Shown here: positions 1 through 39,870 of the stretch, one piece after another
Position numbering within the stretch: position 1 is the first letter of the stretch
How the letters are laid out: every line of letters begins with the position of its first letter
Assembly (NCBI RefSeq): GCF_000380645.1
Contig: NZ_AQXZ01000014.1
Span: forward strand, 248,001-312,000
Origin: Smaragdicoccus niigatensis DSM 44881 = NBRC 103563
GTDB taxonomy: Bacteria; Actinomycetota; Actinomycetes; Mycobacteriales; Mycobacteriaceae
DNA: 64,000 bases
Reading direction: 5' to 3'
The notes under the pieces: model-generated
What the model saw: the letters and a program-made list of their open reading frames with translations, nothing else
What the model was told of the DNA's origin: nothing
Database searches by the model: none
Position numbers and translations under genes: made by a program

Positions 1-827
1 CGCCGATCGCGGCCTTCATCACGTACACGGTGATGGTCAACATCGTCTACTTCGGGGGCGCAGTGCTCGGTGGGCAGGCTGCGTGGCGTGCCGCTCAGCA
101 GCGGGCGCGCCTCGTGGAACAGGCCGAGACGATCGAGCGGCAGTCCGAGGACCTCCAACGTCAGGCCGTCGTGGAGGAGCGCCTGCGGATCGCGCGTGAA
201 TTGCACGATGTTGTCGCCCACCACGTGTCGGTGATCGGCGTCCAGGCCTCGGCCGCGCAGCGGATGCTGCGCCGCGACCCGGACATCGCGGAGGCGTCGC
301 TGCGCTCGATCGAGACCTCGTCGCGCGACGCCGTGACCCAGATGCGCGGACTGCTCGGGACGCTGCGGTCTTCCGACCCGGTCGACGCGAACGACCGTGC
401 GCCCGAACCAAACCTTCCCGACGTGCGCGGGCTGGTCGACGAAGTACGCGATACCGGCTTCGACGTCACGCTCGACGTCGTCGAGGACGAACCTGGTGCA
501 CTTTCCGCGGTATCCGCACCGATCGGACTCTCGTTGTACCGGACCGTTCAAGAAGCGCTGGCGAACGTGCGCCGGCATTCGACCGCTACCAAAGCGCACG
601 TCTCGGTCCGGGTGTCGCATGCCCCGCAACCACGGTTCGCGAACGGATATGCCGAGGTCGAAGTGGTCGACGACGGTCGCCCACGGCCGGGAACCTCCGG
701 CTCCGGACTCGGCCTTCTCGGTGTCCGGGAACGACTGTCGACGCACGGTGGAGTCAGCGAGATCGGACCACGAGTGACCGGCGGCTATCGAGTTCGGGTG
801 CGCCTTCCGTTGGGAGAATCGAAATGA
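1..827 (+). CDS. NarL-family sensor histidine kinase, 5' end cut by window
   Basis: C-terminal part of a two-component sensor kinase. The frame is open to the window edge (reads PIAAFITYT before the first GTG at 30), so the N-terminus and any further membrane helices lie outside. Seen: a helix at the start, a coiled linker, the HisKA_3 phosphoacceptor motif RIARELHDVVAHHVS (His at about base 205), an N-box-like QEALANVRRHS, DDG and GSGLGLLGVRERL, as in HATPase_c of the NarL/DesK group. The gene overlaps the response regulator by four bases (ATGA), so the two are co-translated. The ABC exporter downstream is the likely regulated target (inference). The signal sensed is unknown. Confidence 0.93.
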   Translation, partial: PIAAFITYTVMVNIVYFGGAVLGGQAAWRAAQQRARLVEQAETIERQSEDLQRQAVVEERLRIARELHDVVAHHVSVIGVQASAAQRMLRRDPDIAEASLRSIETSSRDAVTQMRGLLGTLRSSDPVDANDRAPEPNLPDVRGLVDEVRDTGFDVTLDVVEDEPGALSAVSAPIGLSLYRTVQEALANVRRHSTATKAHVSVRVSHAPQPRFANGYAEVEVVDDGRPRPGTSGSGLGLLGVRERLSTHGGVSEIGPRVTGGYRVRVRLPLGESK

Positions 828-1495
828 TCCGGGTCGTACTGGTCGACGACCAGGCGCTCATCCGGTCTGGATTTGCACTGATTCTCGGTGTCGAGGACGA
901 CATCGAGGTTGTGGGGGAAGCGGCGAACGGCCGCGAGGCCATCGACCTGACGCGAAATCAGAGACCTGACGTCGTCCTCATGGACGTTCAGATGCCGATC
1001 CTCGACGGCATCGCCGCGACCCGGGAGATCGTCATGTCGACCGAAGCGCGGGTGCTCATCCTCACGACGTTCGACCGCGACGACTACGTTTTCGACGGTC
1101 TAGCCGCCGGTGCGAGCGGGTTCCTCCTCAAGAACTCCGAAGCCGACCATCTCATCCATGCCGTCCGCACGGTCGCGGCCGGCAACGCGCTGCTCGCGCC
1201 CGAGGTCACCCGGCGGGTGATCTCCCGCATGGCCGCGAAACAGTCGGCGCCACAGTCAGATCCGCGCATTGAAACCCTGACGCCGCGCGAGCTGGAAGTC
1301 GTGCGACTCGTCGGACGAGGTTGGTCGAACGCGGAGATCGCGGCGCACCTCGTCCTCGGGGAAGCCACGGTCAAAACGCATCTGTCGAATGCCTTCGCCA
1401 AACTGCACCTTCGGGACCGAGTCCAGGCGGTCGTGTTCGCCTACGAAGCCGGACTCATCCTCGCGGGGGAAGCCGACCTCGACGGCCACGGCTGA
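824..1495 (+). CDS. NarL/FixJ-family response regulator
   Basis: DNA-binding response regulator, 223 aa, normal family length. The N-terminal receiver domain (about 1-120) shows the acidic pair VDDQ, phosphoacceptor Asp in VLMDVQMPILDG, Thr in LTTF and Lys in FLLKNS. The C-terminal LuxR-type HTH (about 150-215) reads LTPRELEVVRLVGRGWSNAE and ends in VKTHLSNAFAKL. The start ATG overlaps the kinase stop (ATGA), so the kinase upstream is its cognate partner. An ABC exporter follows 53 bases downstream in the same direction and is the plausible regulated operon, as for many actinobacterial HK-RR-ABC loci. Confidence 0.95.
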   Translation: MIRVVLVDDQALIRSGFALILGVEDDIEVVGEAANGREAIDLTRNQRPDVVLMDVQMPILDGIAATREIVMSTEARVLILTTFDRDDYVFDGLAAGASGFLLKNSEADHLIHAVRTVAAGNALLAPEVTRRVISRMAAKQSAPQSDPRIETLTPRELEVVRLVGRGWSNAEIAAHLVLGEATVKTHLSNAFAKLHLRDRVQAVVFAYEAGLILAGEADLDGHG

Positions 1496-6473: not shown

Positions 6474-6623
6474 AGTTCCTGACCCAGGGTGATGTCCCAT
6501 CGATGACCTGCAGCGATGGCATTCTCGACGACTGACCACGATAGGTCACAGGTCGGTGTCCCCGATTGGTGTCCATCGGCGCGTCTCGGCGGCGGGCTGG
6601 AAAACCGCTGCCACAGTGAATGC

Positions 6624-12138: not shown

Positions 12139-12198
12139 GAGGCCTCGCACGAAAGTAGTGTTGAGATCAGGAAACCACCAAGTGGAGGCGTCCGCGAC

Positions 12199-13176
12199 AT
12201 GACTCACGAGGGATTCATCAGGGGCGCGCGTCCGGACGGTCGCGAGACCATCGGTCCGGTGGATGCCATCCGCGTGCCGCGTTTTGCCGAGCCGACGACA
12301 TTCGCACGGCTGCCGCGGCTCGACCAAGTCACCGACCCGGACATCACGGTTCTGGGGGTGCCGTTCGACTCGGGAACCACCTACCGGCCCGGCGCTCGAT
12401 TCGGTCCCGGCCACATCCGGGCGTCGTCGAAACTCCTGCGGCCGTACAACTCGACTCTCGACGTATTCCCGTTCGGCGATCAGCAGGCGGCGGACGCCGG
12501 TGATATCGCCGTCAATCCGTTCAACATCACCGAGGCGATCGAGACGATCGACGCCGAGGTCACCGAGCTGCGCAAACACGGCTCGAAGGTGCTCACCCTC
12601 GGCGGCGATCACACGATCGCACTTCCGATCCTGCGTTCGATCGCACGGGACCACGGTCCGGTGGCGGTCCTGCACTTCGACGCCCATCTCGACACGTGGG
12701 ACACCTACTTCGGCGCGGCTTACACGCACGGCACGCCGTTCCGGCGGGCGAGCGAAGAGGGGCTCATCGACCTGGAGCGGTCGCAACACATGGGCATCCG
12801 CGGTCCGCTGTATAGCAAGGCCGACCTCGAAGATGACAGCATCCTCGGATTCCAGGTCATTCGCTCGGACGATTACCAGGTCGACGGGCTGAAAAGCGTC
12901 GTCGAGCGCATGATGAAGCGTCTGGCCGGCGGGCCGGTCTACATCTCGGTCGACATCGACGTTCTCGACCCCGCGCACGCCCCCGGAACCGGAACGCCGG
13001 AAGCCGGCGGACTCACGTCTCGTGAATTGCTCAACACCATTCGAGCCCTGCAGGGGCTGAACATCGTCGGCGCCGACATCGTCGAAGTTTCACCGGCTTA
13101 CGACCATGCCGAAATCACCGGTATCGCTGCAGCTCATGTGGCGTACGAGTTGCTCTCGGTGATGGTAGAGAAGTAA
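12199..13176 (+). CDS. Ureohydrolase: guanidinobutyrase or agmatinase
   Basis: 325 aa arginase/agmatinase-family Mn enzyme releasing urea from a guanidino substrate. Metal ligands visible: [15 protein letters not shown] and [14 protein letters not shown]. Substrate-loop region [16 protein letters not shown]. The ATG at 12199 is preceded by GTGGAGG; the frame extends to 11392 only as antisense of the amidase. It would normally be called agmatinase (speB), but its position divergent from a monooxygenase-amidase operon fits 4-guanidinobutyrate to GABA + urea (guanidinobutyrase), feeding GabT/GabD at 3.7-6.5 kb. Substrate is inference. Confidence 0.88.
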
Positions 13177-13190
13177 CGGGAGGAATGATC

Positions 13191-14027
13191 ATGAACTATC
13201 CACCATCGCCCTCGGGCTGGCAGCAAACGCCCACCGTCGACACCTCGGCCGCGATCGTCTACGGCTGGAAAAAGTTCGCCGCAAACCCGTTGTGGTGGAT
13301 TCTTCTGATCGTCGCCTATGGCGTCGTCCTCATCATCGACAACTTCATCAGTTCCGGCATGCCGTACGTCGTCAGCCTCTTCTTCACGCTGGTCGGGATG
13401 GCGATTGCGGCGGTCTTCCAGGTCGCCTCGTTCCGCGGAGCCCTCTTCGAACTCGACGGCCGCAAACCGGAGTTCGCCGATTTCTTCAAGATCGACAACT
13501 GGCCCCGCGTGCTCGGCGCCTCCCTGCTGGCAACCGTGCTCGGCGGTGTCATCCCGTGGGTGATCTTCGTGATCGGGAGCGCGCTGGCCGTGGCGGCGGG
13601 CAGTCTCGTCGTTCTTCTTCTGTTCGGGCTCGTGGCCTTCGTCGCCTTCGCAGTCGCGATGTTCCTGACGTACTTCACGGTGCCGTTCGCGCTGGACAAG
13701 CAACTGGATCCGGTCTCGGCGGTGCGCGCGAGCTACCAACTGACCAGCAAGAACGTCGGTCCGCTGTTGCTTCTCGCACTCGCGAACGTCGGACTCCTCA
13801 TCGTCGGCGCGATCCCATGTGGGCTCGGTCTGCTGGTGACGATGCCGATGGTGATGATCTCGTCCTCGTTCGCCTTCCGGACTCTGACCCAAGGCCCTAT
13901 TTCGCCTGCCGATGTCGGACCGCAAGCTGCGTATCCGCAGTATCCGAACCAACCTCCGTACCCGCCATACCCGCCGCAGCAGCCACCCGGGGGCCAGCCT
14001 CCGTTCCCGCCGCCTCCACCGCAGTAG
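13191..14027 (+). CDS. Polytopic membrane protein with proline-rich tail
   Basis: 278 aa, function unknown. N-terminal 25 residues hydrophilic, then about six hydrophobic helices (about 35-215), with GYR-like repeats of Trp/Phe and VPFALDKQLDPVSAVRASY, a feature of actinobacterial multi-helix proteins of the DUF975/GYR type. The C-terminal 45 residues are Pro/Tyr/Gln-rich and cytoplasmic or cell-wall interacting. The ATG at 13191 is preferred over 13185 because GGGAGG at 13178-13183 is then seven bases away. It lies 14 bases after the ureohydrolase and may be co-transcribed, but a pathway role is not evident. Confidence 0.8.
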   Translation: MNYPPSPSGWQQTPTVDTSAAIVYGWKKFAANPLWWILLIVAYGVVLIIDNFISSGMPYVVSLFFTLVGMAIAAVFQVASFRGALFELDGRKPEFADFFKIDNWPRVLGASLLATVLGGVIPWVIFVIGSALAVAAGSLVVLLLFGLVAFVAFAVAMFLTYFTVPFALDKQLDPVSAVRASYQLTSKNVGPLLLLALANVGLLIVGAIPCGLGLLVTMPMVMISSSFAFRTLTQGPISPADVGPQAAYPQYPNQPPYPPYPPQQPPGGQPPFPPPPPQ

Positions 14028-14049
14028 GTATTCCTGAGACAATGGTCGG

Positions 14050-14460
14050 GTGACAGGAATCAAGAAACCGAGCGTGTGGCAGTACCTGCGGTACTGCTTG
14101 GGTGCGGTTTTGCCTCCTGACCTGCATGATTGGGTTCGCAACGACCTCATCAGCAAGGGTGCGGCGACGCGCTTCGTGGTCCGCGTGACGACGCCCGTGG
14201 TGCTCGTGCTGGCGCCGGTTTATCTGCTTCCGACGGACATCGTGACGAAACTCATCATGACGATGCCGTTGGCCCTGCCCTTCGTCTACTTCGCGATTGC
14301 CCTGAATCCGGTCTATCGTCGATACCGCCTCAACAAGCACGGCATGGACGGCGACCTCGTGGATCAGTTACGCCGCGAAAAAGAAGCGCCCGACATGCAG
14401 GCTTACTACGCCAGGTATCGCCCCGAGATGCTCGAAGATGAGGCAAACCCGCCAACGTAG
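14050..14460 (+). CDS. DUF5313-like small membrane protein
   Basis: 136 aa. Begins with a GTG; conserved core KKPSVWQYLRYCLGAVLPPDLHDWV, then two hydrophobic helices (about 50-95) and a charged tail RRYRLNKHG. This pattern matches DUF5313 proteins, which as I recall are common in mycobacteria and relatives and are of unknown function. Same direction as its neighbours with 22- and 11-base gaps, so it probably sits in one transcript with them. Confidence 0.75.
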   Translation: MTGIKKPSVWQYLRYCLGAVLPPDLHDWVRNDLISKGAATRFVVRVTTPVVLVLAPVYLLPTDIVTKLIMTMPLALPFVYFAIALNPVYRRYRLNKHGMDGDLVDQLRREKEAPDMQAYYARYRPEMLEDEANPPT

Positions 14461-14471
14461 GGAGTTCACCT

Positions 14472-15221
14472 ATGTGGAAGTCCTCGACCATGATGCCGGT
14501 GCCGTCATCTGGACATATCTTCGAAACGACGCTGCCGGTTCTGTCGAGCGACCTCGATGAAAGCGACCAAGTCCGCCCCGATGGGATCGCCCGTTACCTG
14601 CAGGAAGCCGGTTTCCAGCATCTGATCGCCAACGGAATGGATGAATCGCATCCCCACTGGATCGTCCGCCGGACCGTCATCGACGTGATCGAGCCGATCA
14701 AGTGGCCGGACCAGCTGCGCGCGCGGCGCTGGTGTGCCGCCCTGTCGAGTCGCTGGTGCTCGATGCGCATCCGGCTCGATGGCGGCGACGGTGGCCTCGT
14801 CGAGACCGAGGCCTTCTGGATCTGCATGAACCTGAACACCCAGGCACCGGCCCGCATGTCGGATGAGTTCATCAACACCATCGGCGACACCACCTCCGAG
14901 CACCGACTCAAGTGGAAGTCGTGGCTCTCGAACCCGGTCTCGAAGCAGGCGTCCATCAAGTTCCACGTGCGCCGCACCGATATCGACATGTGGAAGCACG
15001 TCACGAACTCGGCCTACTGGCAGGGCATCCACGAGGTGACCGCCAACCACAGCGACATCACGAGCATTCCGCACCGGTACGTCATCGAGTACAACAAGCC
15101 CATCACCTCCGGTGAGGACGTCCGCATCTGGACCGAACTCGAATCCGACGGCACCCTCCAGATCGCGTTTGCGGTAGGCGACGAAGTTCGTACGCGCGCC
15201 GCGGTTATGGCGTTGCCCTAG
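14472..15221 (+). CDS. Acyl-ACP thioesterase-like double hot-dog protein
   Basis: 249 aa protein resembling FatA/acyl-[ACP] thioesterases conserved in Mycobacteriales. Two hot-dog halves: the first (about 15-120) has DLDESDQVRPDGIARYLQEA and HWIVRRTVIDVIEPI; the second (about 155-245) has HVRRTDIDMWKHVTNSAYWQ, with the Asp/Asn/His-type residues used by plant and bacterial acyl-ACP thioesterases. Likely releases fatty acids from ACP or CoA carriers in the cytoplasm. The ATG at 14472 has GGGAG upstream. The reverse transcriptase gene starts 99 bases downstream. Confidence 0.8.
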   Translation: MWKSSTMMPVPSSGHIFETTLPVLSSDLDESDQVRPDGIARYLQEAGFQHLIANGMDESHPHWIVRRTVIDVIEPIKWPDQLRARRWCAALSSRWCSMRIRLDGGDGGLVETEAFWICMNLNTQAPARMSDEFINTIGDTTSEHRLKWKSWLSNPVSKQASIKFHVRRTDIDMWKHVTNSAYWQGIHEVTANHSDITSIPHRYVIEYNKPITSGEDVRIWTELESDGTLQIAFAVGDEVRTRAAVMALP

Positions 15222-15304
15222 GGCGTCCCAGCCGGTTTGCTGATCGGTTACTCTCGGCACTGTGCGACGGTGGCGCGGTGAGCGAGGACCGAGAAGGTCT
15301 GTCT

Positions 15305-15319
15305 CAGGGGTAACCCCTG
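15305..15319 (+). promoter_or_regulatory. Hairpin directly before the reverse transcriptase GTG start
   Basis: Perfect inverted repeat CAGGGG-TAA-CCCCTG ending one base before the GTG at 15321. It would hide the only purine-rich stretch available as a ribosome site for that start. It could be a translational control hairpin or part of a retron-like non-coding RNA; alternatively the true start is the ATG at 15429 and this region is untranslated. Confidence 0.4.
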
Positions 15320-15320
15320 G

Positions 15321-16676
15321 GTGCGTCGAATCAGTTGGCAACAGCGTCCGAAGCCGCTGGGCACGCTCCGCGTGCGGCCCGGCGACAAAGACAAGAGCAG
15401 GTCGTCGGCCACCGTCGCGCGCCCACTGATGCAGGGCCGGTTTTCACTCCCGCACGCGCAAGCCATCGCGCGCGCGTTCGGCCGGAGGGAGCTTTCCTGG
15501 CGGCGGGAGAACCTCGCTGAGGTCTTCGCCGGCTTTGTCGAAGCAGGTCTGGCGGAATCGTTGGCGTCGCAGGTCATCGACAACGTACCGCTCGAGCCCA
15601 TCGAGCCTTATCCGACGCTGGTGGCCCAACTACGTTCGCTCCGCTGGGAAATCGACCTCAACCCGCCGCTCGCCAAACCCTTGCGGTTTGGCGTTCCGGA
15701 GTTGCCAGACGTCTCGGCGCTCGCGCAGTTTCTCAACCTGACCCCGAGCGAGCTGGACTGGTTCGCGGACTGCGGAGGTTGGTTGCGGACCGCTAGCGGC
15801 CCGCTGTCGCATTATCGCTATCGGCAGCTGCCCAGGCGGTCCGGTCGTCGATTGGTCGAAGCTCCCAAGCCGCGATTGCGGGAGATTCAGCGGACCATCA
15901 ACCGCCGGATATTGGCGTGCTTGCCGGTCCACAGCGCGTGTCACGGGTTCGAATCCGGACGCAACCCAGCCACGTTCTCGGCTCCGCACAGCAGTGCCGG
16001 CCTGCTGATCCGTATGGACCTGAAGAACTACTTCTCGAGCATCGGTGAACCGCGCGTCCGTGCGATCTTCGAGGCCATGGGTTACTCGGAGGTGGTGTCA
16101 CGATCGCTCGCGGGTTTGAGCACCAATGCCTCGTCGATTGCCGCGTTGCGGGGTTTGGACCACGAGCAACGAACATTTCTCCGGGTTCCGCATCTGCCGC
16201 AGGGTGCGCCGACATCGCCCAAACTCGGCAACTTGGCCGCGCGTGGACTCGATCGACGGCTGTCCGGTTTCGCGCTTCGCGTGGGGATGACCTACACGCG
16301 CTATGCCGACGACCTGGCCTTTTCCGGTGCCGATGGCATCAACGCGGGGTCGATAGTCAGCGCCGTCGAGCGCATCATCGCGGCTGAAGGTCTCTTCGTG
16401 AACCGCCAGAAGACGCTCATTCGGCGATCGCACCAGCGGCAGATCCTCGCCGGGTTGGTCGTCAACGACCACCCCCAGGTTCCGCGGGACAGCTACGACA
16501 AGGTGCGCGCGATCCTGCACAACGCCGCTCGAACCGGCGCCGCCGCGCAGAATCGCGGTGGCCATGCGGACTTTCGGGCACATGTTCTGGGCCTCATCAG
16601 CTGGATCGGGGAGACCAACCCGGACCGGCGTGAGCGGCTTCTCGACCTGGCCGCCGAGGTCGACTGGACTACGTGA
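15321..16676 (+). CDS. Retron-type reverse transcriptase
   Basis: 451 aa RNA-directed DNA polymerase. An N-terminal region of about 130 aa has no motif I recognise. The RT core (about 150-430) has all key blocks: [25 protein letters not shown] followed by APH (retron region-X position), motif [12 protein letters not shown], motif [16 protein letters not shown], motif [13 protein letters not shown] with catalytic YADD, NRQKT, and LAGLVVN (retron region-Y position). No maturase or endonuclease domain. Start uncertain: GTG 15321 (next to a hairpin) or ATG 15429 ([11 protein letters not shown]). No effector gene adjoins it: the neighbours are a thioesterase and a convergent copper ATPase overlapping its last eight bases. 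Retron versus domesticated RT cannot be settled here. Confidence 0.88.
15361..15375 (+). repeat. Short perfect hairpin in the 5' part of the reverse transcriptase gene
   Basis: GCACGC-TCC-GCGTGC, six-base perfect stem with three-base loop. It lies between the two candidate starts (15321 and 15429), so if the gene starts at 15429 this belongs to a structured leader together with the 15305-15319 hairpin and the TCTCGG/CCGAGA pair at 15252-15257 and 15289-15294. Confidence 0.35.
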
Positions 16677-18801
16677 ACCGGCGCAGCCGCAGGCTGTTGC
16701 CCACGACGAAGACGCTCGAGCTCGCCATCGCGGCTCCCGCGATCATGGGGTTGAGCAGGCCAGTTGCCGCGAGCGGAATCGCGGCGACGTTGTAGGCGAA
16801 CGCCCAGAAGAGGTTCACCTTGATCGTGCCGAGGGTTCGGCGCGACAGTCGGATCGCATCGGCTGCGCTGCGCAGGTCACCGCGGACGAGCGTCAAATCC
16901 GCCGCTTCGATCGCCACGTCGGTGCCGGTACCCATCGCGAGCCCGAGATCGGCTTGAGCGAGGGCGGCGGCATCGTTCACGCCATCTCCGACCATCGCGA
17001 CGACCTTGCCGTCGCGTTGAAGCCGGGCGATGACGTTCGTCTTGTCCTGCGGAAGCACCTCGGCGAAGACCTGGTCGATCCCAACCTCGCGCGCTATCTC
17101 TTGGGCCACCCGCTCGTTGTCGCCGGTGAGCAGGATGGGCGTGAGACCAAGGTCCTTGAACTGCGCGATCGCTTCGCGGCTCGTCGGTTTGACCGTGTCC
17201 GCGACGACAAGAGCGCCCTTGGCGGCACCGTCCCACGCGGCGAGAACCGCGGTCCGACCCCGGTCTTGTGCGTTCTGCACGGCGGCGCGGAGTTGCTCAT
17301 CGATCACGACCCCGTAGTCGGCGAGCAGTGCTTCCCGGCCGATGACGACGGCATGACCTTCGACGACCCCTGTGACGCCCAGGCCTTCGACGTTCTGGAA
17401 GCTTTCGACGACCGGGAGCTCGGGAACTGCACGTGCGATCGCCATCGCCACCGGGTGTTCGGACGCATTCTCGACGGCTGCGGCGATCCGGAGCAGTTCA
17501 TCGCGCTCCACGCCTGAAACCGGAATGACGTCGACAAGCTCCATGCGACCGGTCGTGACAGTGCCGGTCTTGTCGAGAACGATGGTGTCGACCCGACGAG
17601 TGCTTTCGAGGATCTCAGATCCCTTGATGAGAATTCCCATGCGAGCGCCGCGACCCGTACCGACTAGCAGTGCGGTAGGCGTGGCCAGGCCGAGGGCGCA
17701 GGGGCACGCGATGATCAGGACGGCGACGGCTGCAGTGAAGGCGTCATTCGCCGAATGGCCCGTCAGGAGCCAGCCGGCCAGGACGACGAGGGCGATGCCG
17801 ATGACGACGGGGACGAAGACGCCGGAGATGCGGTCGGCGAGGCGCTGGACCTCAGCTTTTCCGGATTGCGCGTCTTCCACGAGCTTGGCGATCTGGGCCA
17901 GTTGCGTGTCGCTGCCGACGCGTGTGGCACGCACGACGAGCCGACCACCGGCGTTGATCGTCGCGCCGGTGACCGAGTCACCGACCGTGACGTCGACGGG
18001 CACCGATTCGCCGGTCAGCATCGACAGGTCGACCGCGGACGAACCGCTGAGCACGATGCCGTCGGTGGCGATTTTCTCGCCCGGACGAACAACGAACTCA
18101 TCGCCGACTCGCAGTCGGTCGGTCGGGATCCGTTCTTCGATGCCATCCCGCAGGACCGCAACGTCTTTGGCGCCGAGTTGGAGGAGGGCGCGTAATGCGG
18201 CACCAGCCTGGCGCTTCGAGCGCTTCTCGAAGTAGCGGCCACCGAGAACGAACATCGTGACGCCCGCGGCGACTTCGAGGTAGATGTGACCGTTGCTGAT
18301 CGTCAGCGCATACAGGGACCACAGCCACGATGCGCCCGTACCGACGGAGATGAGGGTGTCCATCGTCGACGTGCCATGGCGGAGGTTGGTCCACGCGGCG
18401 TGGTGGAACGGCCAGCCCGACCACCACACGACCGGGGTTGCAAGCGCGAACGCCACCCATTCCCAGCCCGGGAATTGGAGGGCCATGATCATGGACACGG
18501 CAATGACGGGGATGGCCAGCACGGTTGCGACGATGAGCCGGAGGCGCAGCGTGGACAGCTCGACGTCCGGTGTCTCGTCCGTTCGCGGCAGCGACGCGGT
18601 GTAGCCGGCCTTCTCGACCTCAGCGATGAGAAGTTCAACGGGCAGATTGCCGATGACCTGCGCCTTTTCGGTCGCGTAGTTGACGGTCGCCGAGACGCCA
18701 TCGAGCTTGTTGAGCTTTTTCTCGATGCGCGCGGCACACGAAGCGCACGTCATTCCGCCGATCTCGAGTTCGAGAGCGGCGGGCGCTTCAGTCCTGGTCA
18801 T
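16669..18801 (-). CDS. copA: Copper-translocating P-type ATPase
   Basis: 710 aa P1B-type ATPase exporting Cu(I) across the cytoplasmic membrane. N-terminal heavy-metal domain with [13 protein letters not shown] (about 13-25), eight helices, actuator LTGESVPVD, the metal-binding CPC in [15 protein letters not shown], phosphorylation site [20 protein letters not shown] (HP motif), [15 protein letters not shown] and [17 protein letters not shown]; the final helices carry [10 protein letters not shown] and [15 protein letters not shown], as in CopA. The ATG at 18801 overlaps the copZ stop by four bases. Its 3' end overlaps the convergent reverse transcriptase gene by eight bases. Confidence 0.94.
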
Positions 18802-19010
18802 GCGACTCGAACCGCCTGGTATCCGGCTTCGTCGACCGCGGCGACTACGTCGGCATCCGCGACTGGCTCGGATGAGGTGATGACAAGCTTGCCGGTCTTC
18901 GCGCTGACGGCGATCTGCTGGATCGTGCCGATCTTGCTCAATTCCTCGCGGACCGAGGCCTCGCAATGGCCGCAGCTCATTCCGGTGACCTGGTATTCGG
19001 TGGTTGCCAT
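18798..19010 (-). CDS. copZ: CopZ-like copper chaperone
   Basis: 70 aa heavy-metal-associated domain protein. The MTCxxC-equivalent loop reads [11 protein letters not shown] near the N-terminus; the rest forms the short beta-alpha-beta-beta-alpha-beta fold typical of Atx1/CopZ. It delivers Cu(I) to the CopA ATPase whose gene it overlaps (ATGA). The ATG at 19010 is chosen because the conserved [13 protein letters not shown] begins there; the upstream in-frame ATG would place the CsoR-like operator inside the coding region. Confidence 0.9.
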
Positions 19011-30906: not shown

Positions 30907-33138
30907 ATGCGTAGTCAGCCGATTGTCGAACCCGGTCTCCCGGGTCTCGTCAAGGCTGGTGCGTTGGCTCAGGCCAACGCCCTCGGAACTGTGGTCCGCA
31001 ACGCAGTGTTCCTGTTCGCCGCCGTGGTGTATCTCGCACAGCCGTTTCACACGCATTGGGGCAACCTGCTTGCGGCCGCGACATTCGCTTGGGGAGTCGG
31101 CCGCCTGCTCACCCTCTCGTTGTCATTCCGCTGGGTCGTGGCGGACGGCGTGTTCGGTGCCGGTCTGTGTGCCGCGGAGGTGCTCCTTGTGGGTCCCGGC
31201 TTCGGGGATCCGAGCATGTCTTTCACGCGGGCCATCGCGGAAGCCGTCGTGGTGTCGGTAGCGATCTCGATGCCGACCCGGATTTCCGCACCGATCATCG
31301 GGAGCGCGATCCTGGCGTGCCTGTTCGGGCACTGGCTGGTTGATGGCTCTCTCGATCCGACCGTGCTCTACCCACTGGTCGACGGTTTCGTGGCCGCCGC
31401 GATTCGCTGGGGATTCGTCCGTGCGGCCTTCGCTGCGGACCAACTCTCCGATGCGGTCCGCGTGGAGAGGCTCCGCAGTGAGGTCGCCCAGGCTCGTCGG
31501 CGCTTCGAGCGAGAACAACTCGCGCTCCTGCACGACACGGCTGCCTCGACGCTGCTCATGGTCGGCGACGGGTCTGCGCCAGACCGAGACCGTTTGGCGC
31601 AGCAAGCCGCTCACGATGTGGTGCGGCTGGAAGCTGCTGCGAAGTCCGCTCGCAACGATGCGCAGGTCGACCTCGTCGCCGCCCTCGCGGAGGTCTGCGC
31701 GGAGTGCCAGTGCTCGGCCCGGTTGGTTTCGTCCGGTCCGGTCACGGTCACGCGGACAATTCTGGGTGCCGTATGCGGCGCGACCCGCGAAGCTCTCAAT
31801 AACGCGAACCGGCATTCGAAGGCGCGCCACGTCGATGTGAGCGTGCAGGGTCGGTTGGTCACGATCACCGACGATGGTGTCGGGTTCGCCGCGTACCGAA
31901 ACGCCGGGTACGGAATCCGCGCATCGATCGAGGACCGGATGCGCCGTGCCGGTGGCGAGGGCACCGTCGAAAGTGTGCCGGGAGTAGGCACCCAAGTGCG
32001 TTTGACGTGGCCGGACGACGAACCGTCGGACCGCCCCGAATCGCCGATCGATCCGGATCGAGTGCAGCGTGGATTCGGCTACGGGATCGCGGCCGGTTCG
32101 CTGGTCGCCACTCTCGAACTAGTGCCAAGGGTCTTCACCGCGCCCGTCCCGTACCTGTGGGCACAGTTGTTGCTCATCACGCTCACGCTTGCCTCGAGTG
32201 TCATCGCGGGCCTGGCGACCGCGGGTGTGGTTGTTCGCCTCGCCGAGTGGTATGCACCGTTTGCTTTCCTCTTGAGTCCGATTGCACTTCTCCTGCTTCC
32301 GGAGCAGGGGCTCATCGGCGGCCAGAACTGGGTGTTCGGCGTCAACGGTTGGGGAGTCGTCGCGTTGCTGGTCGGTGCCGGCCGGCCACGAACCGCTCTC
32401 GCGCTGGGGTCGGTGGCAGCCACATGGACGATCGACTCCGTCATCATCCTCGCGCGATCGGATTCGCCGAACTCGGCGGCTTACGTCGGCTACATGATGG
32501 TCGCGATCGGCACACTGCAGGTGTTCGCGGTCTTGTTCGCGCGACTGTTGCGAACGTCCGTTCTGCGTTCACGCGAGCTCGACGCCGAGCGCACGCGATT
32601 GCAGACCGAGCAGGCCATCGCCGCGGCGCTGCAAGCCGACTACCGGGAACGATTCTCGGACCTGGCGCGGACCGTGATTCCCGTGCTGAGGCTTCTCGCG
32701 GACCGTCCGATCGCGTCCGACGATCCGGAGGTGCAGGAACTCGCGCGTGCGGAGTCGGCCCGCTTGCGCCGGCTCTTCGCACAATCGGATGCCTTCGACC
32801 ATCCGTTGGTCCAGCACCTGCGGCGCGGTCTGGACGAAGCCGAGCGACGGGGGGTGACCGTCGGATTCGACCTCGACAGCCGGCCGCCAGACCTTCCGGT
32901 CGAGGAATCGACGCAGACGGTATCGGCTCTCAACGACCTGATCGACGGTGCCCGTAGCCGCGTCCGCCTCGTCGTGACGTCGTCACCGTCGATAGTCACG
33001 GTCAGCGTCGTGTCCGACTGCGAGTCGGATTTGGTCGACAATGTCCGCGCCAGGCTCGACGGTAGCCGCTACGAGCTCACAACCGACGGCTCCGTGGTCT
33101 GGGTTCGCGTGCATTTTCCGGTGCCGGTGAGTGTATGA
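30907..33138 (+). CDS. Tandem kinase-array member 1: duplicated membrane histidine kinase
   Basis: 743 aa. Half one: about six helices (30-180), coiled linker, phosphoacceptor motif REQLALLHDTAASTLLMVGD (His about 215), N-box TREALNNANRHS, G-boxes ITDDGVGF and GYGIRASIEDRMRRAGG, as in NarL-type kinases. Half two: six more helices (about 385-560), then a kinase-like domain (about 575-740) in which the His motif is FSDLARTVIPVLRLL and the ATP-binding motifs are lost. Ends VVWVRVHFPVPVSV. ATG at 30907; the longer frame is antisense of the pirin gene. Overlaps member 2 by ATGA. Most divergent of the four. No partner regulator is adjacent. Confidence 0.88.
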   Translation: MRSQPIVEPGLPGLVKAGALAQANALGTVVRNAVFLFAAVVYLAQPFHTHWGNLLAAATFAWGVGRLLTLSLSFRWVVADGVFGAGLCAAEVLLVGPGFGDPSMSFTRAIAEAVVVSVAISMPTRISAPIIGSAILACLFGHWLVDGSLDPTVLYPLVDGFVAAAIRWGFVRAAFAADQLSDAVRVERLRSEVAQARRRFEREQLALLHDTAASTLLMVGDGSAPDRDRLAQQAAHDVVRLEAAAKSARNDAQVDLVAALAEVCAECQCSARLVSSGPVTVTRTILGAVCGATREALNNANRHSKARHVDVSVQGRLVTITDDGVGFAAYRNAGYGIRASIEDRMRRAGGEGTVESVPGVGTQVRLTWPDDEPSDRPESPIDPDRVQRGFGYGIAAGSLVATLELVPRVFTAPVPYLWAQLLLITLTLASSVIAGLATAGVVVRLAEWYAPFAFLLSPIALLLLPEQGLIGGQNWVFGVNGWGVVALLVGAGRPRTALALGSVAATWTIDSVIILARSDSPNSAAYVGYMMVAIGTLQVFAVLFARLLRTSVLRSRELDAERTRLQTEQAIAAALQADYRERFSDLARTVIPVLRLLADRPIASDDPEVQELARAESARLRRLFAQSDAFDHPLVQHLRRGLDEAERRGVTVGFDLDSRPPDLPVEESTQTVSALNDLIDGARSRVRLVVTSSPSIVTVSVVSDCESDLVDNVRARLDGSRYELTTDGSVVWVRVHFPVPVSV

Positions 33139-35408
33139 GACCCGTTTCTGCGCTGGTCGGACGTGACACAATCCAAAGGGTGCCGACCTCGATGACGGCG
33201 GAATCCGCCAACTCTGTCGAGACACGTGTGTTCCGGCAAGCACGCGTGGTGGCAATCGTCGGGCGAAACGTCGCGTTTCTTCTCGTCTCACTCGTCTATC
33301 TGATCCAGTCCGCGAAGACCCCCGTCGGCATCGCCTTGTTCGGTGCTCTGCTGATCTGGTCGTCGTTCCGCATCTACACCCGGAACGACAGCCTGTTGCG
33401 CGTTGGCGACGTGGGCTTTGTCGTCGCGGCGGGGCTGCTCGCGCCGCTTATCGTGTCGCCAACGATCATTGACGCATCGATGTCCGCCACCCGGGCAATC
33501 GGTTACCCGATGATCGTCGCCGCTGGCGTGGTGTGGGCGACGCGGTGGTCGTTCACCGTGATGGTCGTGGTCACCGGCGCCGCCGCTATCGGAGACCTGA
33601 TTCTGTTCGGGCGATTGGACATCTCGCTCGCCGCGTTCGTGTTCAGCTGGGCCGCGGCAGCCTGCGTGCACCGACTCATCCAGCGCGCCGCGGCGAGCGC
33701 GGACGCTGCCTACGCCGAAGCGCACCGGGCGCGGCTGCGCGAGCAGGTCGCGGCCGCGCGCATCCGGTTCGAACGCGAGCACTTCGCGATGCTCCACGAC
33801 ACCGCGGCGTCGACGTTGATGATGGTCGGCGACAGTTCCGGCCTCGACGCGAAACGACTGTCCGCGCAGGCGGCGCGCGACATCGAGGTGTTGACGACTG
33901 GTTCGGAGGTCGTGGATCCGGACTGGCAGGTCGATCTGGTCGACCACGTGGAGGTGGTCAGCCTGGAATGCCGGACTCCGGTGACCGTCACGCACGAGGG
34001 TCCGGTCATGGTGCCGTCGCTCATCGCCTCGCTGGTCTCGGCGGCCACGCGGGAGGCCCTCAACAACGTCGATCGGCACTCGGGCGCGAGTCGAACGACG
34101 ATCGACGTCGAGCCGGGCCGGGTGTCGATCGTCGATGATGGAGTTGGCTTCAACCCAGACGAACGTCGCGGATTCGGGCTGCGATTCTCGATCGAGGGGC
34201 GGATGCGGCGCGCCGGCGGAACCGGTTCGGTGTCGAGCGCGCCGGGTGCCGGAACGATCGTCAAACTGATGTGGCCGGTGGTTCCGCCCGAGCCGGCCGG
34301 CAAACCGATTGACGTCGCGGGTGTGGTGCGCGGTTTCCAATATGGGCTTGCGGCAGCATCGTTCCTGGTCAACATCGAGATGCTGGTGATCGGCTTCGGC
34401 GGTTTCACAGGTATCCGGTCGCCGATTACGGCACTCGTGATTTCCGGACTGTTCCTCATGAGCGGGCTTGCCGTTGTCGTCGTTCGCTTCGGCGCCGAAA
34501 GGCTGCGCTGGGTGTGCATCACGATCGTCGTGGTGGTTGCGTTGTTTCGTATCGCGACTCTCCCGCCCGGCCTTCTGACCGCCGTTCCGAACTGGGTGGC
34601 GATTGCGGTCGGTTGGGTCTTGGTGGCCCTGCTCAGCGGGTGGGTCGCAAGCGGCCGCCGGACGGCGATCGCCGTCGGACTGATCTTCGGGTACTGGGTG
34701 ATTCGTGGCGCGATTCGCGTCTGGCGAATGCCGACCAGCGAAATGATCGAATTCTCGGGCTACGGGATCGCCTCTGTGGCGACCATGCAGGCCGCGGCAA
34801 TTGCCTGTGCGTGGGTTCTTGCCGAGGCCGTACGAGTCGCTGCGCGGCTCGGTGAGCAGCGGTACCGGATCGCGACCCACCGCGCCGTCGAAGAGGCTCT
34901 GCAGCAGGACTACCGGCGCCACTTCGCGAGCCTCACGGCCGACATCGTCGGTCTGTTGCGTGGCATCGCCGACGGCACGATGCCAGTCGACCGGCCCGCG
35001 GTCCGGGATCGGGCGCACATCGAATACGCCCGTCTTCGGCGCCTGTTTGCCCAGGCGGAGTCCTTCGAGCATCCACTCATGCAGCGTTTGCGGCCGTTGG
35101 TCGACGCCGCGGCACGACGAAATGTGGACATCACGCTCGATGTGCAGTCGCGACCGCCCGAGCTCGCACCGCAGGACCTCGAAGCGGTGGCCGCCGCGAT
35201 CGGCCACCTGGTCGAGGGTGCGCAAGAGCGGATTCGTCTCGTCGTTTCGTCGTCCCTCGGGCACGTGACGGTGAGCATCGTGAGCGATTCGAACGACGCG
35301 GTCTGCGCGCAGGTGCGCGATGCGCTCGCCGACGGTGACTATCAACTGACTGTTGCCGATCGCGTGACGTGGCTTCGCGTACACATTCCGGTGGCTGTGG
35401 CGGCGTGA
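33135..35408 (+). CDS. Tandem kinase-array member 2: duplicated membrane histidine kinase
   Basis: 757 aa, same architecture as member 1. Active-looking half: helices from VGRNVAFLLVSLVYLIQ onward, His motif REHFAMLHDTAASTLMMVGD (about 243), N-box REALNNVDRHSG, SIVDDGVGFNP, GFGLRFSIEGRMRRAGG. Second half: helices (about 400-570), then HFASLTADIVGLLRGIADG in place of a His box, and RIRLVVSSSLGHVTVSIVSD where the nucleotide-binding domain should be. Ends VTWLRVHIPVAVAA. ATG 33135 overlaps member 1's stop; ATG 33192 is a possible later start. Coupled to member 3 by a GTGA overlap. Confidence 0.88.
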   Translation: MRPVSALVGRDTIQRVPTSMTAESANSVETRVFRQARVVAIVGRNVAFLLVSLVYLIQSAKTPVGIALFGALLIWSSFRIYTRNDSLLRVGDVGFVVAAGLLAPLIVSPTIIDASMSATRAIGYPMIVAAGVVWATRWSFTVMVVVTGAAAIGDLILFGRLDISLAAFVFSWAAAACVHRLIQRAAASADAAYAEAHRARLREQVAAARIRFEREHFAMLHDTAASTLMMVGDSSGLDAKRLSAQAARDIEVLTTGSEVVDPDWQVDLVDHVEVVSLECRTPVTVTHEGPVMVPSLIASLVSAATREALNNVDRHSGASRTTIDVEPGRVSIVDDGVGFNPDERRGFGLRFSIEGRMRRAGGTGSVSSAPGAGTIVKLMWPVVPPEPAGKPIDVAGVVRGFQYGLAAASFLVNIEMLVIGFGGFTGIRSPITALVISGLFLMSGLAVVVVRFGAERLRWVCITIVVVVALFRIATLPPGLLTAVPNWVAIAVGWVLVALLSGWVASGRRTAIAVGLIFGYWVIRGAIRVWRMPTSEMIEFSGYGIASVATMQAAAIACAWVLAEAVRVAARLGEQRYRIATHRAVEEALQQDYRRHFASLTADIVGLLRGIADGTMPVDRPAVRDRAHIEYARLRRLFAQAESFEHPLMQRLRPLVDAAARRNVDITLDVQSRPPELAPQDLEAVAAAIGHLVEGAQERIRLVVSSSLGHVTVSIVSDSNDAVCAQVRDALADGDYQLTVADRVTWLRVHIPVAVAA

Positions 35409-37642
35409 GGATGACTTTGCCGCCCGCCGAGGGCTTGGTTCAGACCGGCATCATCAAACAGGCCGAAGTGGTGGCGCTCCTGATGCGCAACTCGGCATTT
35501 GCGCTGGTCGCCGTGGTGTATTTGCTGCAGACGACGCGCTCGGTCGCCGGAGTCGTGCTGTTTGGGCTGCTGTTCGTCTGGTCGGTCTGGCGGTTGCGCA
35601 GTCGGGACCTGTCGCGGTCGTTGCTGGTCGCCGACGTCGCGTTCGTGGTCGCCGCCGCGCTGCTCGAGTCGGAGATCGTGCCGGTGACAGTCGCCGACCT
35701 GTCAATGGCGTCGACGCGGATGATCGCGTACCCGGTGGTGGTATCCGTCGCGATCGCACAGCCGAAGCGATGGTCGTTCACGATCGCGGCGGTGATCTCG
35801 GCGGCCAGTGGAATCGGGGATTACGTGCTCTTCGGGGCCCCGAGCATTTCGACCATTGCGATCTTCGCGCTCAACTGGTGGGCGGCGACGTGGGTGCGGC
35901 GGATGGTGCTGCGGGCCGGTGCGGAAAGCGATGCGGCGGATGCCCTGGCGCGTCGGGCCCAACTCCGGGAACAGGTCGCGGCGGCGCGGATCAGATTCGA
36001 ACGTGAGCAGTTTGCGACGCTGCACGACACCGCGGCCTCGACACTTCTCATGGTCGCGGACACCGATGTACTGGATCCGCATCGATTGGCGAACCAGGCT
36101 GCGCGGGACATCGCCATCTTGACCGAGGCAACGAGCCGGGTCAGATCGGATTCGACGGTCGACCTCGTGGCATGCGTCGAGGGAGTGTGCGCCGAGTTCT
36201 CGACTCCCGTCGAGGTCTGGTCAGACGGGCCGGTCGTGGTGTCGCAGCTGATCGCGGCAGCGGTCGCGGCGGCGGTGCGGGAGGCGCTCAACAACGTCGA
36301 CCGGCATGCTTGTGCCACGTCGGTTCGGGTGACAGTGGCTCCGGAGGCGGTGACGGTGACCGACGACGGCGTCGGATTCGACCCCGCGCGGGCGAGTGCC
36401 GGCTTCGGTTTGCGTGCGTCGATTGACGCCCGGATGCGTCGAGCCGGTGGTTCGTCGGCAGTCGTCAGTTCCCCGGGTGCGGGCACGACGGTCTCGCTGC
36501 AGTGGCAGCAGGCGCCGGTCGATGACGATCCCGAGCAGTCGATCGACGTGAGCCGGGTGCTGCGCAGTTATCAGTACGGACTCGCCGCCGCCCAGATTCT
36601 GGTCCTGACCGAGATGGTGTTTCTCGCGTACGGCGGTTTGAGCGCGATCGGGCTGGGCTTACCGGCCGCGGTGATCGCCATGCTCGCCATCACCGGACCG
36701 ATTGTCGTGATTGCCGTGCGCGCCGATCTCACGCCGGCGCGGTGGGTGTGGGTCATCGCGTTGTCACTGCTCGACCACTGGTACCTCGCGGTACTGCCGA
36801 CCCGTGAGATGTTGACGATGCAGAACTGGGTCTCGACCTCGGTGGGTTGGGCCACGGTCGCCGTGTTCGCGGGGTGGGTCAGAAGTCGACAGCGCGTCCT
36901 GGCGGCCGCGACGATGGTGGTCACGATGTGGGTCATCGACAGCGCGATCATGGTGTGGAGGGTCCCGACCAGCGCGGTCGTCGAGTACGCGGGGTATGGC
37001 CTTGCATCAATCGCATCGATGCAGGTCGGTGCGCTGTTCTTCGGTTGGCTTCTCGCCGAGGCGGTGCGCCGGGCGGAGCTCCTGGGCCACGCACAGCTCA
37101 CGGCGGCGACCCATCTGGCCGTGGAAAAGGCAGTGCAGGAGGACTACCGCAAGCGATTCGAAAGGCTGACGACCGAGGTCGTCGAGCTCCTGCGTGGGCT
37201 GGCGGATCGGTCGCTCAGTGCCGGACAGCCCGCAGTGCAAGAGCGAGCGCAGACCGAGTACGCCCGCCTCCGGAGGCTTTTCGCGCAAGCAGACTCCTTC
37301 GAGCATCCCCTCATGCAACGGCTCCGCCCGGTTTTCGACGCAGCGGCTGAGCGCGGGGTCGAGGTGACGTTCGACGTGCAGTCACGGCCGCCGGATCTCG
37401 CCGAGCGGGACATCGAGCCACTCGCCGCCGCGATCGATCAGCTGGTTCAGGGGTCGAGCGATCGGGTCCGCTTGGTCGTCTCATCGTCCGATGAGCGGGT
37501 GACCGTGAGTGTGGTCAGCGACTGCATCGATCGCTGCCGCGCGCAGGCGAGCGATGTGCTGGCGGGTACGGAGTTCCAGCTGACGGTCGCCGACCGCGTG
37601 ACGTGGCTTCGCGTACACCTCCCGGTGGTCGTTGCCGCGTGA
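35405..37642 (+). CDS. Tandem kinase-array member 3: duplicated membrane histidine kinase
   Basis: 745 aa, same architecture. Half one: MRNSAFALVAVVYLLQ and further helices, His motif REQFATLHDTAASTLLMVAD, REALNNVDRHAC, VTDDGVGFDP, GFGLRASIDARMRRAGG. Half two: six helices, FERLTTEVVELLRGLADRS without the His, YARLRRLFAQADSFEHPLMQ, and degenerate RVRLVVSSSDERVTVSVVSD. GTG at 35405 overlaps the previous stop (GTGA) and is followed by an in-frame ATG at 35411. The 24 bases at 37595-37618 near its end are identical to 35361-35384 in member 2. Confidence 0.88.
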   Translation: MRMTLPPAEGLVQTGIIKQAEVVALLMRNSAFALVAVVYLLQTTRSVAGVVLFGLLFVWSVWRLRSRDLSRSLLVADVAFVVAAALLESEIVPVTVADLSMASTRMIAYPVVVSVAIAQPKRWSFTIAAVISAASGIGDYVLFGAPSISTIAIFALNWWAATWVRRMVLRAGAESDAADALARRAQLREQVAAARIRFEREQFATLHDTAASTLLMVADTDVLDPHRLANQAARDIAILTEATSRVRSDSTVDLVACVEGVCAEFSTPVEVWSDGPVVVSQLIAAAVAAAVREALNNVDRHACATSVRVTVAPEAVTVTDDGVGFDPARASAGFGLRASIDARMRRAGGSSAVVSSPGAGTTVSLQWQQAPVDDDPEQSIDVSRVLRSYQYGLAAAQILVLTEMVFLAYGGLSAIGLGLPAAVIAMLAITGPIVVIAVRADLTPARWVWVIALSLLDHWYLAVLPTREMLTMQNWVSTSVGWATVAVFAGWVRSRQRVLAAATMVVTMWVIDSAIMVWRVPTSAVVEYAGYGLASIASMQVGALFFGWLLAEAVRRAELLGHAQLTAATHLAVEKAVQEDYRKRFERLTTEVVELLRGLADRSLSAGQPAVQERAQTEYARLRRLFAQADSFEHPLMQRLRPVFDAAAERGVEVTFDVQSRPPDLAERDIEPLAAAIDQLVQGSSDRVRLVVSSSDERVTVSVVSDCIDRCRAQASDVLAGTEFQLTVADRVTWLRVHLPVVVAA

Positions 37643-39870
37643 GTGCGATGGTCCGGCCCGTTCCGGGCCTTGTTCAAGCTGGCATTCGGCAGCAGTCCGA
37701 CATCGTCGCGCTGGTCATGCGGAACGCCGCATTCCTGCTCGTGTCGCTGGTTTACCTGTCGCAGTCCGGGCGCACGGTGACCGGTGTTGTCCTTTTCGGG
37801 CTGACAGTGGTCTGGTCAGTCTGGCGGCTCCGCCGCCGTGACCTGTCGGCGCGCTATCTCGTGTGCGATGTCGCGATCGTGGTCGTCGCGGCCCTGCTCG
37901 AGTTCGCGATCGTGCCCGCGACCGTCGCGGACATCACCCAGTCGGTGACCCGGGTGCTCGCGTACCCAGTCGTCGTCTCGGTGGCGATATCGCGTCAGAA
38001 GCGGTGGTCATTCGCGGTGATGGCGGCCGTGACGGTGTCTAGCGCCGTCGGCGATCAGCTCCTCTTCGGGGCACCGAGTTCAACCGTCATGATCTTCGCG
38101 CTCAATTGGTGGGCGGCTACGTGGATTCGTCGGATGGTGCTCAAGGCGGCCGCGGCGAGCGATACCGCGGATGCCGAGGCGCGCCGGGCCCAGTTGCGGG
38201 AGCGCGTTGCGGTGGCCCGAATCCGGTACGAGCGAGAACAGTTCGCGACCCTGCACGATACGGCCGCGTCGACGCTCCTCATGGTCGCCAATGCGGGCCG
38301 GCTCGATCCCGAGCGACTGGCGACTCAGGCGGCGCGCGATGTCGCCGTGCTGACTGATTCGTCGAACATTGTCGGCTCGGATCTCGAGGTCGACCTCGTG
38401 GCCGGATTGGAGCGGGTCGGCGCCGAGTGCCGGACGTTGGTCACGGTGCGCAGTTCGGGACCGGTCGTGGTCAGCCCGTTGATCGCCGGTTCGGTGATGG
38501 CTGCCGTTCGGGAAGCGCTCAACAATGTCGACCGGCATGCGTTCGCGACCTCGGTGCAGGTGGACGTCACCCCGGACCTCGTCACGGTGACCGACGACGG
38601 GATCGGATTCGATCCCACCGAACCCCGGCTCGGATTCGGATTGCGATTTTCGATCGAGGAACGCATGCGACGAGCGAACGGATCAGCTGAGATTTCGAGT
38701 TCGCCGGGTGCGGGTACCACGGTGTCGCTGGGCTGGGTTGCGCCGTCGGTCGAGGTCGAGGCCAGTTCACCGACCGATGTCGGCCGAGTGCTGCGGAGCT
38801 TTCAATACGGGCTCGCGTTCGCGCAGGTTCTCCTGCTCATACAACTGGTGCTCATCGTGTTCGGGGTCGACGGGATCAAGTGGGGGCTGTCGACCGTCAC
38901 CGCTGCGATGCTGTTCGGTACGTGGGTCGTGGTGACATTGCTCGTGCGCGAGCGGTTCATGTTCCTACGCTGGCTGTGGGTCGTGCTGCTGGCCGTTCTC
39001 GACCACTGGTACCTCGTCACGCTGCCGACCTCGGACTTCCTCAGCCCGCAGAACTGGGTGACGAACGCCGTGGGATGGGCCGTGGTGGCGGTGCTGTGCG
39101 GATGGGTCGGATCGTGGCGTCGAGTCTGGATCGGGACAGCAATCCTCGGCGCGATGTGGGTCATCGACACGGTGATCATGGTGTGGCGGGATCCGAGCGG
39201 GCCGGTCATCGAGTGGGCGGGCTACAACCTCGCGGCGATCGCGAGCATGCAGTTCGCGGGCTTGTTCTGTGGCTGGCTGCTCGCCGAAGCCGTGCACCGG
39301 GCCGACGACCTCGGTCGCGGGCAGCACGCCGCGGAAACGCGTTTCGCGGTGGAACAAGCCCTGCAGCAGGACTACCGGAAGCGGTTCGAACGACTGACGA
39401 CCGAGGTCATCGTTCTGCTCCGCGGGTTGGCCGATCGTTCGCTTCAGGCCGGAGACGTGCGGGTCCAAGAGCGGGCGCAGGCCGAGTACTCGCGTCTGCG
39501 CAGGCTCTTCGCGCAGGCAGACTCGTTCGAGCATCCCCTCATGCAGCGTCTGCGGCCGGTGTTCGATGCGGCCGCTGACCGAGGTGTTGACGTGACGTTC
39601 GACGTCCAGTCGCGGCCACCGGATCTCGCCGACCAGGACATCGAACCGATCGCCGCGGCGATCGATCACCTGGTGGAGGGCTCGAACAATCGGGTTCGGC
39701 TGGTGGTGTCGTCGTCCCAGGAGACGGTGACCGTGAGCGTGGTGAGCGACAGCACCGACAACGTCCGAGCTCTGGTGCGGGATGCCTTGGCGGACGGCGA
39801 GTTTCAGCTGACGGTAGCCGACACGGTCACCTGGCTACGGGTTCATCTGCCGGTACCCATCGCCGCGTAG
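37639..39870 (+). CDS. Tandem kinase-array member 4: duplicated membrane histidine kinase
   Basis: 743 aa, same architecture. Half one: MRNAAFLLVSLVYLSQ, His motif REQFATLHDTAASTLLMVAN, REALNNVDRHAF, VTDDGIGFDP, GFGLRFSIEERMRRANG. Half two: helices, FERLTTEVIVLLRGLADRS, YSRLRRLFAQADSFEHPLMQ, RVRLVVSSSQETVTVSVVSD, ending VTWLRVHLPVPIAA. GTG at 37639 forms a GTGA overlap with member 3's stop. Closest to member 3. Its last 28 bases overlap the convergent FAD/Fe-S dehydrogenase gene, which closes the array. Confidence 0.88.
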   Translation: MSAMVRPVPGLVQAGIRQQSDIVALVMRNAAFLLVSLVYLSQSGRTVTGVVLFGLTVVWSVWRLRRRDLSARYLVCDVAIVVVAALLEFAIVPATVADITQSVTRVLAYPVVVSVAISRQKRWSFAVMAAVTVSSAVGDQLLFGAPSSTVMIFALNWWAATWIRRMVLKAAAASDTADAEARRAQLRERVAVARIRYEREQFATLHDTAASTLLMVANAGRLDPERLATQAARDVAVLTDSSNIVGSDLEVDLVAGLERVGAECRTLVTVRSSGPVVVSPLIAGSVMAAVREALNNVDRHAFATSVQVDVTPDLVTVTDDGIGFDPTEPRLGFGLRFSIEERMRRANGSAEISSSPGAGTTVSLGWVAPSVEVEASSPTDVGRVLRSFQYGLAFAQVLLLIQLVLIVFGVDGIKWGLSTVTAAMLFGTWVVVTLLVRERFMFLRWLWVVLLAVLDHWYLVTLPTSDFLSPQNWVTNAVGWAVVAVLCGWVGSWRRVWIGTAILGAMWVIDTVIMVWRDPSGPVIEWAGYNLAAIASMQFAGLFCGWLLAEAVHRADDLGRGQHAAETRFAVEQALQQDYRKRFERLTTEVIVLLRGLADRSLQAGDVRVQERAQAEYSRLRRLFAQADSFEHPLMQRLRPVFDAAADRGVDVTFDVQSRPPDLADQDIEPIAAAIDHLVEGSNNRVRLVVSSSQETVTVSVVSDSTDNVRALVRDALADGEFQLTVADTVTWLRVHLPVPIAA

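Follow-up and report, generated by a model that had tools for sequence, protein, structure and literature searches.

A tandem array of four fused histidine kinase-pseudokinase genes without a linked response regulator in Smaragdicoccus

The window analysed here, a 64,000-nt stretch of the Smaragdicoccus niigatensis genome, carries four consecutive genes, arranged head to tail on the plus strand, each of which encodes a fused kinase-pseudokinase protein. Gene 1 (30907..33138, 743 codons) comprises an active-type kinase half at 30907-32034 and a pseudokinase half at 32035-33135, and the same division applies to gene 2 (33135..35408, 757 codons; halves 33135-34298 and 34299-35405), gene 3 (35405..37642, 745 codons; halves 35405-36529 and 36530-37639) and gene 4 (37639..39870, 743 codons; halves 37639-38760 and 38761-39867). 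The open frames confirmed the initial annotation of four genes of 743-757 codons, in which gene 2 overlaps gene 1 through an ATGA tetramer, gene 3 overlaps gene 2 through GTGA and gene 4 overlaps gene 3 through GTGA. Every protein follows the order transmembrane (TM) block, active-type kinase, TM block, kinase-like part, and the four are 38-66% identical in pairwise comparison. The TM blocks are the most divergent parts among the four copies (mean identity 43% and 35%), which fits differing inputs, and DHp helix 1 around the histidine is near-invariant, which fits either four kinases addressing one response regulator (RR) or pairing of the kinases among themselves. A genome search returned no further full-length copies beyond the array, and an assembly artefact was ruled out as the source of the four genes, since they lie mid-contig and are present in a second species.

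All four first halves retain the motifs LHDTAAST, REALNN and DDGxGF, that is, the DHp histidine motif, the N-box and the G-box, with the catalytic histidine of gene 3 (residue 207) encoded at 36023-36025 on the plus strand. Each matched HATPase_c (PF02518) at 29.3-34.9 bits against a cut-off of 26.4, and HisKA_3 (PF07730) was unmatched in the array proteins in the Pfam search. The histidine column is retained in all 46 RR-adjacent first halves as well as in the four from the window. The best named NCBIfam match of all four first halves was the MacS family (NF047322, 41-63 bits), membership of which was rejected against the curated cut-off of 300; its model of 367 positions corresponds to about one half of an array protein. 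The active module would be a NarL-type histidine kinase (HK) composed of about six TM helices, a DHp domain with the histidine and a CA domain.

Intact kinase motifs, which the initial annotation had ascribed to each protein, are found in the first halves but not in the second halves, which are homologous but degenerate. Alignment by hhalign of profiles of the first halves (A6, 14 rows) and the second halves (A3, 22 rows) gave a probability of 97.5 and an E value of 6.8e-12, and the column opposite the phosphoacceptor histidine holds T, A, G, I, V, S or L, with histidine in 0 of the 22 second-half rows. No ATPase family in Pfam or NCBIfam matched the second halves. For gene 3, the structure predicted for the second half (mean pLDDT 76.5, pTM 0.51, from 8 sequences) shows TM-like helices, long helices of DHp type and a small alpha/beta domain. 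The latter matched the CA domains of AgrC (110 residues aligned at rmsd 2.7, Z 12.5) and of DesK (104 aligned at rmsd 2.3, Z 12.3), structural matches that test mainly residues ~259-369 of the model. On this predicted GHKL fold, the second half is a pseudokinase without the histidine or recognisable ATP motifs, and the module would consist of about six TM helices, histidine-free DHp-like helices and a CA-like fold. To our knowledge, few natural histidine pseudokinases have been described. A predicted full-length model (mean pLDDT 73.7, pTM 0.54) suggests a topology of six plus six TM helices, about 12 per chain, which on our own reading of the model helices would place both kinase modules in the cytoplasm.

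The second species of the genus (genome G001, locus L014) carries all four genes in an order identical to that of the window and with identical overlap tetramers (ATGA, GTGA, GTGA), and its array is flanked by glutathione-peroxidase-like and FAD-oxidase-like genes as in the window, these identities being a sequence reading on the G001 side. Whole-gene dN/dS between the window and L014 orthologues ranges from 0.13 to 0.26. In all four orthologue pairs of these two species the CA-like part of the pseudokinase is better conserved than the active CA domain (gene 1, 86% vs 59%; gene 2, 95% vs 92%; gene 3, 90% vs 84%; gene 4, 94% vs 82%). Judged from these comparisons, the four-fold array is maintained by selection, and the possibility of an isolated duplication in one strain, raised with the initial annotation, is contradicted by the matching gene order and overlaps of the second species. 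Gene 1 stands apart, with an orthologue identity of 68% vs 85-90% for genes 2-4. At synonymous sites it diverges by 0.9-1.5 along most of its first two thirds, where one brief segment reaches saturation, and by 0.42-0.62 at the pseudokinase end; the front (window ~30907-32530 vs L014 ~5536-7160) is two to three times as divergent at these sites as genes 2-4, and the 3' end is not. Because divergence is high at the front and low at the pseudokinase end, gene 1 is likely a recombined mosaic or the product of allele replacement.

The 4-bp overlaps and gene order shared by two species, together with the near-identity of DHp helix 1 in all four proteins, also favor a putative obligate hetero-oligomeric sensor, in which co-translated subunits would pair via their DHp helices, the pseudokinases would set the partners, and the output would be the orphan regulator P0018, described below, or another RR. 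A precedent exists in the FasBCA system of group A Streptococcus, which includes two kinase-like membrane proteins, FasB and FasC, that form a heterodimer by two-hybrid analysis and feed one RR, FasA (PMC12675982). FasBCA resembles the array in that kinase-like membrane proteins, with six putative TM segments each in FasB and FasC, feed one RR (PMC12675982), but its genes are separate and unfused, and the two systems are likened here at the level of description. Obligate pairing is countered by the relatives of the array, which are mostly single copies beside one RR, so that partners are not generally required, and by gene 1, which diverges faster than the other three. We consider an obligate hetero-oligomer rather unlikely. 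An elaborated form, in which one heteromeric receptor of about 12 TM helices per chain would use its pseudokinases to choose partners and gate kinase access to the distant regulator as a combinatorial many-to-one switch, appears distinctly unlikely. We favor kinase-pseudokinase sensors, each contained in one chain, that would converge on one unlinked RR.

A search of the genome for receiver domains gave 38 matches, two of them on the contig of the array. The nearest RR gene, outside the system at 824..1495 on the plus strand, ends 29.4 kb before gene 1, bearing out the earlier statement that the only receiver gene in the window lies about 30 kb away, and no RR was found in the 24 kb between the array and the contig end. 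This RR gene pairs with an HK gene that ends at its start and was ruled out as the partner of the array on account of its own HATPase partner 18 bp away. A linked RR overlooked by the initial annotation was also ruled out, as none of the 38 receiver matches genome-wide is nearer than 29 kb. A second, larger kinase array was observed elsewhere in the same genome (G000:C17, ~150.9-169.1 kb; L137 4891-13669 and L138 254-9640), where five kinases on the plus strand, a receiver-only protein (120 aa), a NarL-type RR (221 aa, L137:13004-13669) and then six kinases on the minus strand follow one another. HATPase was matched in 11 of these 11 kinases, with HAMP, HisKA_3 and HATPase_c present in all 5 that were scanned, and similar matches occur in the second species (G001:C185).

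To place the array among its relatives we searched genomes of the family, order and class, scoring the best 2 candidates per genome (the family scan among these searches) or the best 5 (class scan) in ~400 genomes each, so that copy numbers in these scans are lower bounds. Full-type matches occurred in 17 of 401 family genomes at E <= 1e-45, the own genome and G001 counted, and pseudokinase-half matches in 51 of 394 class genomes at E <= 1e-12. The loci examined were the best-scoring ones (30 loci of a longer match list in the class scan), and the surroundings read spanned 17-20 kb at loci from the order and family scans, 14-19.5 kb in family f32 and 4 kb at most of the class loci that do not belong to f32; the RR profile used for these loci included P0018 and its G001 orthologue. 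Across Actinomycetes the HK and the pseudokinase are encoded either by a single fused gene or by two neighboring ones, and, with the genus and f32 set aside, a NarL-type RR adjoins 49 of the 49 best-scoring loci examined. The order scan contributed 20 fused and 3 split loci to this set, the class scan 12 loci and the family scan 14. The gap between the pseudokinase half and the RR closest to it is below 0.3 kb or negative in 43 of the 49 and at most 1.5 kb; the RR lies on the opposite strand in five, and in one (L256) its HTH part matches poorly. Left out of the 49 were the repeats L144 and L189, secondary rows in L154 and L254, and three weakly matching rows in L262 and L263, where the RR lies at a distance of 1.2-3.9 kb. 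Locus L255 (G1041, 8664-18839) contains, within ~10 kb, two kinase/RR units and a stand-alone HTH in addition to a fused kinase-RR unit.

By these measures the array proteins are full-length two-module members of one clade of an actinomycete fused HK-pseudokinase family, and the adjacent NarL-type RR that is usual for this family is absent at the window array and at L014. The systems most like the array are the fused (e.g. L057, L248, L015) or split (e.g. L074) loci of Actinomycetes, among which those of the same family are its closest kin by tree; they share with it a two-module protein whose second half lacks the histidine but have one copy per stretch and a neighboring RR, where the array has four copies and no RR nearby. 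Among relatives, fused copies per 14-20 kb stretch number at most two by profile, the two in G323 being accompanied by two RRs. The suggestion that homologues might prove to be solitary kinases with a cognate regulator in a well-known pathway is largely borne out for the homologues as far as gene order is concerned; we know of no pathway for homologues of the array kinases. The four window kinases group with their orthologues as a single clade of the kinase tree (bootstrap/SH-aLRT 100/99), which branches as (1,(2,(3,4))), with gene 1 earliest, and adjoins the g29 kinases (94/89). The usual family state is a fused sensor with an adjoining RR, and we infer that in an ancestor of the genus the sensor gene would have been duplicated in tandem in the order (1,(2,(3,4))), giving an array without an RR.

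Family f32 is another orphan-rich lineage. An RR was absent from the fetched stretch at 16 of 17 f32 loci (14 genomes) and present at an additional f32 locus (L156), and HDT is kept in 16 of the 17 copies; unlinked fused kinases therefore exist outside the genus of the array too. The f32 genomes (L172-L188) were also seen to contain long fused frames of 743-1252 codons, with at least four matches in some genomes. The lack of an RR linked to the array and the f32 fused kinases without a nearby RR (16 of 17 loci) could both be read as signs of a membrane ATPase or scaffold outside two-component signaling, as the initial annotation had proposed in the form of a non-phosphorelay ATPase system. This proposal is at odds with the catalytic histidine, N-box and G-box kept in all four kinases and in the second species, with the HDT of the f32 copies and with relatives that are kinases adjoining a NarL-type RR, and we regard it as highly improbable. 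The preferred reading, phosphotransfer from the array to one unlinked RR, leads to the question of which regulator that would be.

The own genome encodes 16 NarL-type RRs (receiver and GerE matches paired by us), 14 of which have a HATPase match within 2.7 kb; the two with none within 3 kb are P0018 (G000:C18:553357-554073), whose neighbor genes we take to be Mpa/ARC-like and TrmI-like, and the RR at C16:219458, which falls outside P0018's part of the RR tree. A tree built from 58 RRs places P0018 among those next to kinase-pseudokinase genes, within a group of 9 (SH-aLRT 98) nested in one of 25 (100), and the surrounding set of 43 rows contains one other own RR, that of contig C7. With more family loci added, and L256 left out for its poorly matching HTH, P0018 is sister to the RR of G797 (96/81) at 73.5% identity. 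The sister groups differ between the kinase tree (array with g29, 94/89) and the RR tree (P0018 with G797, 96/81), although they fall in the same region, and many forks of the RR tree are unresolved. P0018 is 97% conserved in G001. Across 46 pairs of kinase and RR, the identity of a kinase to the array and that of its RR to P0018 rise together (Spearman coefficient 0.86, species history being ignored). The corresponding coefficients are -0.65 to 0.39 for 14 of the genome's 15 remaining NarL RRs (C19:838528 was left out of the controls); with DHp alone the values are 0.65 for P0018 and -0.61 to 0.47 for other own RRs. A comparison of gene order that took in the array, the surroundings of P0018 and 22 stretches from relatives showed nothing shared, with isolated matches only, to the secretory-lipase gene of the window in three stretches; its pirin-like query gave no usable result. 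The RR tree, the kinase-RR correlation and the genome context together suggest that P0018 is most likely the partner RR of the array.

P0018 may instead serve another kinase, given its relatives in two genomes: G012 carries one (61-63% identity) with no fused kinase detectable by profile search, and in G026 one (54-55% identity) lies apart from weakly matching kinase-pseudokinase genes. The occurrence of a P0018-type RR without array kinases in G012 would be compatible with array kinases that address other RRs, such as the C7 RR of the own genome, or several NarL RRs by cross-talk. The C7 operon is itself a probable split arrangement of HK, pseudokinase-like protein, RR and HTH: at G000:C7 94.6-97.9 kb (L018 6577-9888) we observed a kinase, a membrane protein, an RR and a free-standing GerE helix-turn-helix protein that lacks a receiver. 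We read the membrane protein, which has no Pfam match and was missed by our profile, as a degenerate kinase. The C7 RR, however, shares 28% identity with P0018, its distances show the opposite trend to those of the array (rho -0.65) and it has a kinase of its own, and we hold wiring of the array to other RRs to be very unlikely. Stand-alone LuxR-type HTH proteins also occur elsewhere in the own genome (90-131 aa; C16:138077, C16:305219, C17:429115) and in relatives (L206, L207), with a tail, roughly GRxAxxKxxLxxRAxxD, that resembles that of the P0018-type RR family; these small proteins are possible receiver-less competitors or partners.

The reading that we find reasonably probable is that of tandem-multiplied kinase-pseudokinase sensors, each in one chain, which converge on the unlinked regulator P0018 and in which the pseudokinase half is regulatory. 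The four kinases would phosphorylate one RR, most likely the orphan P0018, so that four parallel inputs would converge on one switch. The pseudokinase half would serve the kinase half of its own chain as an integral regulatory partner, plausibly tuning the kinase/phosphatase balance.

No account of a four-fold array was found in the openly licensed literature, an absence that agrees, weakly, with the initial remark that no such system had been described, and no name for the HK-pseudokinase module was found in the family libraries and openly licensed papers searched. The KinA-KinE kinases differ from the array in that they belong to a phosphorelay, have no pseudokinase half and are not known to be encoded in one array. 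They provide a case of several sensors with one receiver, Spo0F (PMC12471899). Dead kinases that affect the signaling of an active kinase are described for DivL of Caulobacter and for an evolved ChrS of C. glutamicum, where the authors saw no significant heterodimer of truncated ChrS with HrrS (PMC9491836, PMC12471899); neither pseudokinase is fused to the active kinase, unlike in the array. The 'dual histidine kinase' of PMC7516205 was rejected as a description of this architecture, being unrelated and annotated as PrrAB.

What is new here is the tandem four-copy array without a linked RR; HK-pseudokinase genes as such are not wholly new, being widespread in Actinomycetes. In this clade a pseudokinase regularly accompanies an active NarL-type kinase, either as a separate gene or as an in-frame fusion, and since fusion fixes the stoichiometry of the two modules, the role of the pseudokinase is testable in one polypeptide. 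The four-copy array without an adjacent RR provides a test case for whether duplicated kinases are insulated, mix or converge on one regulator.
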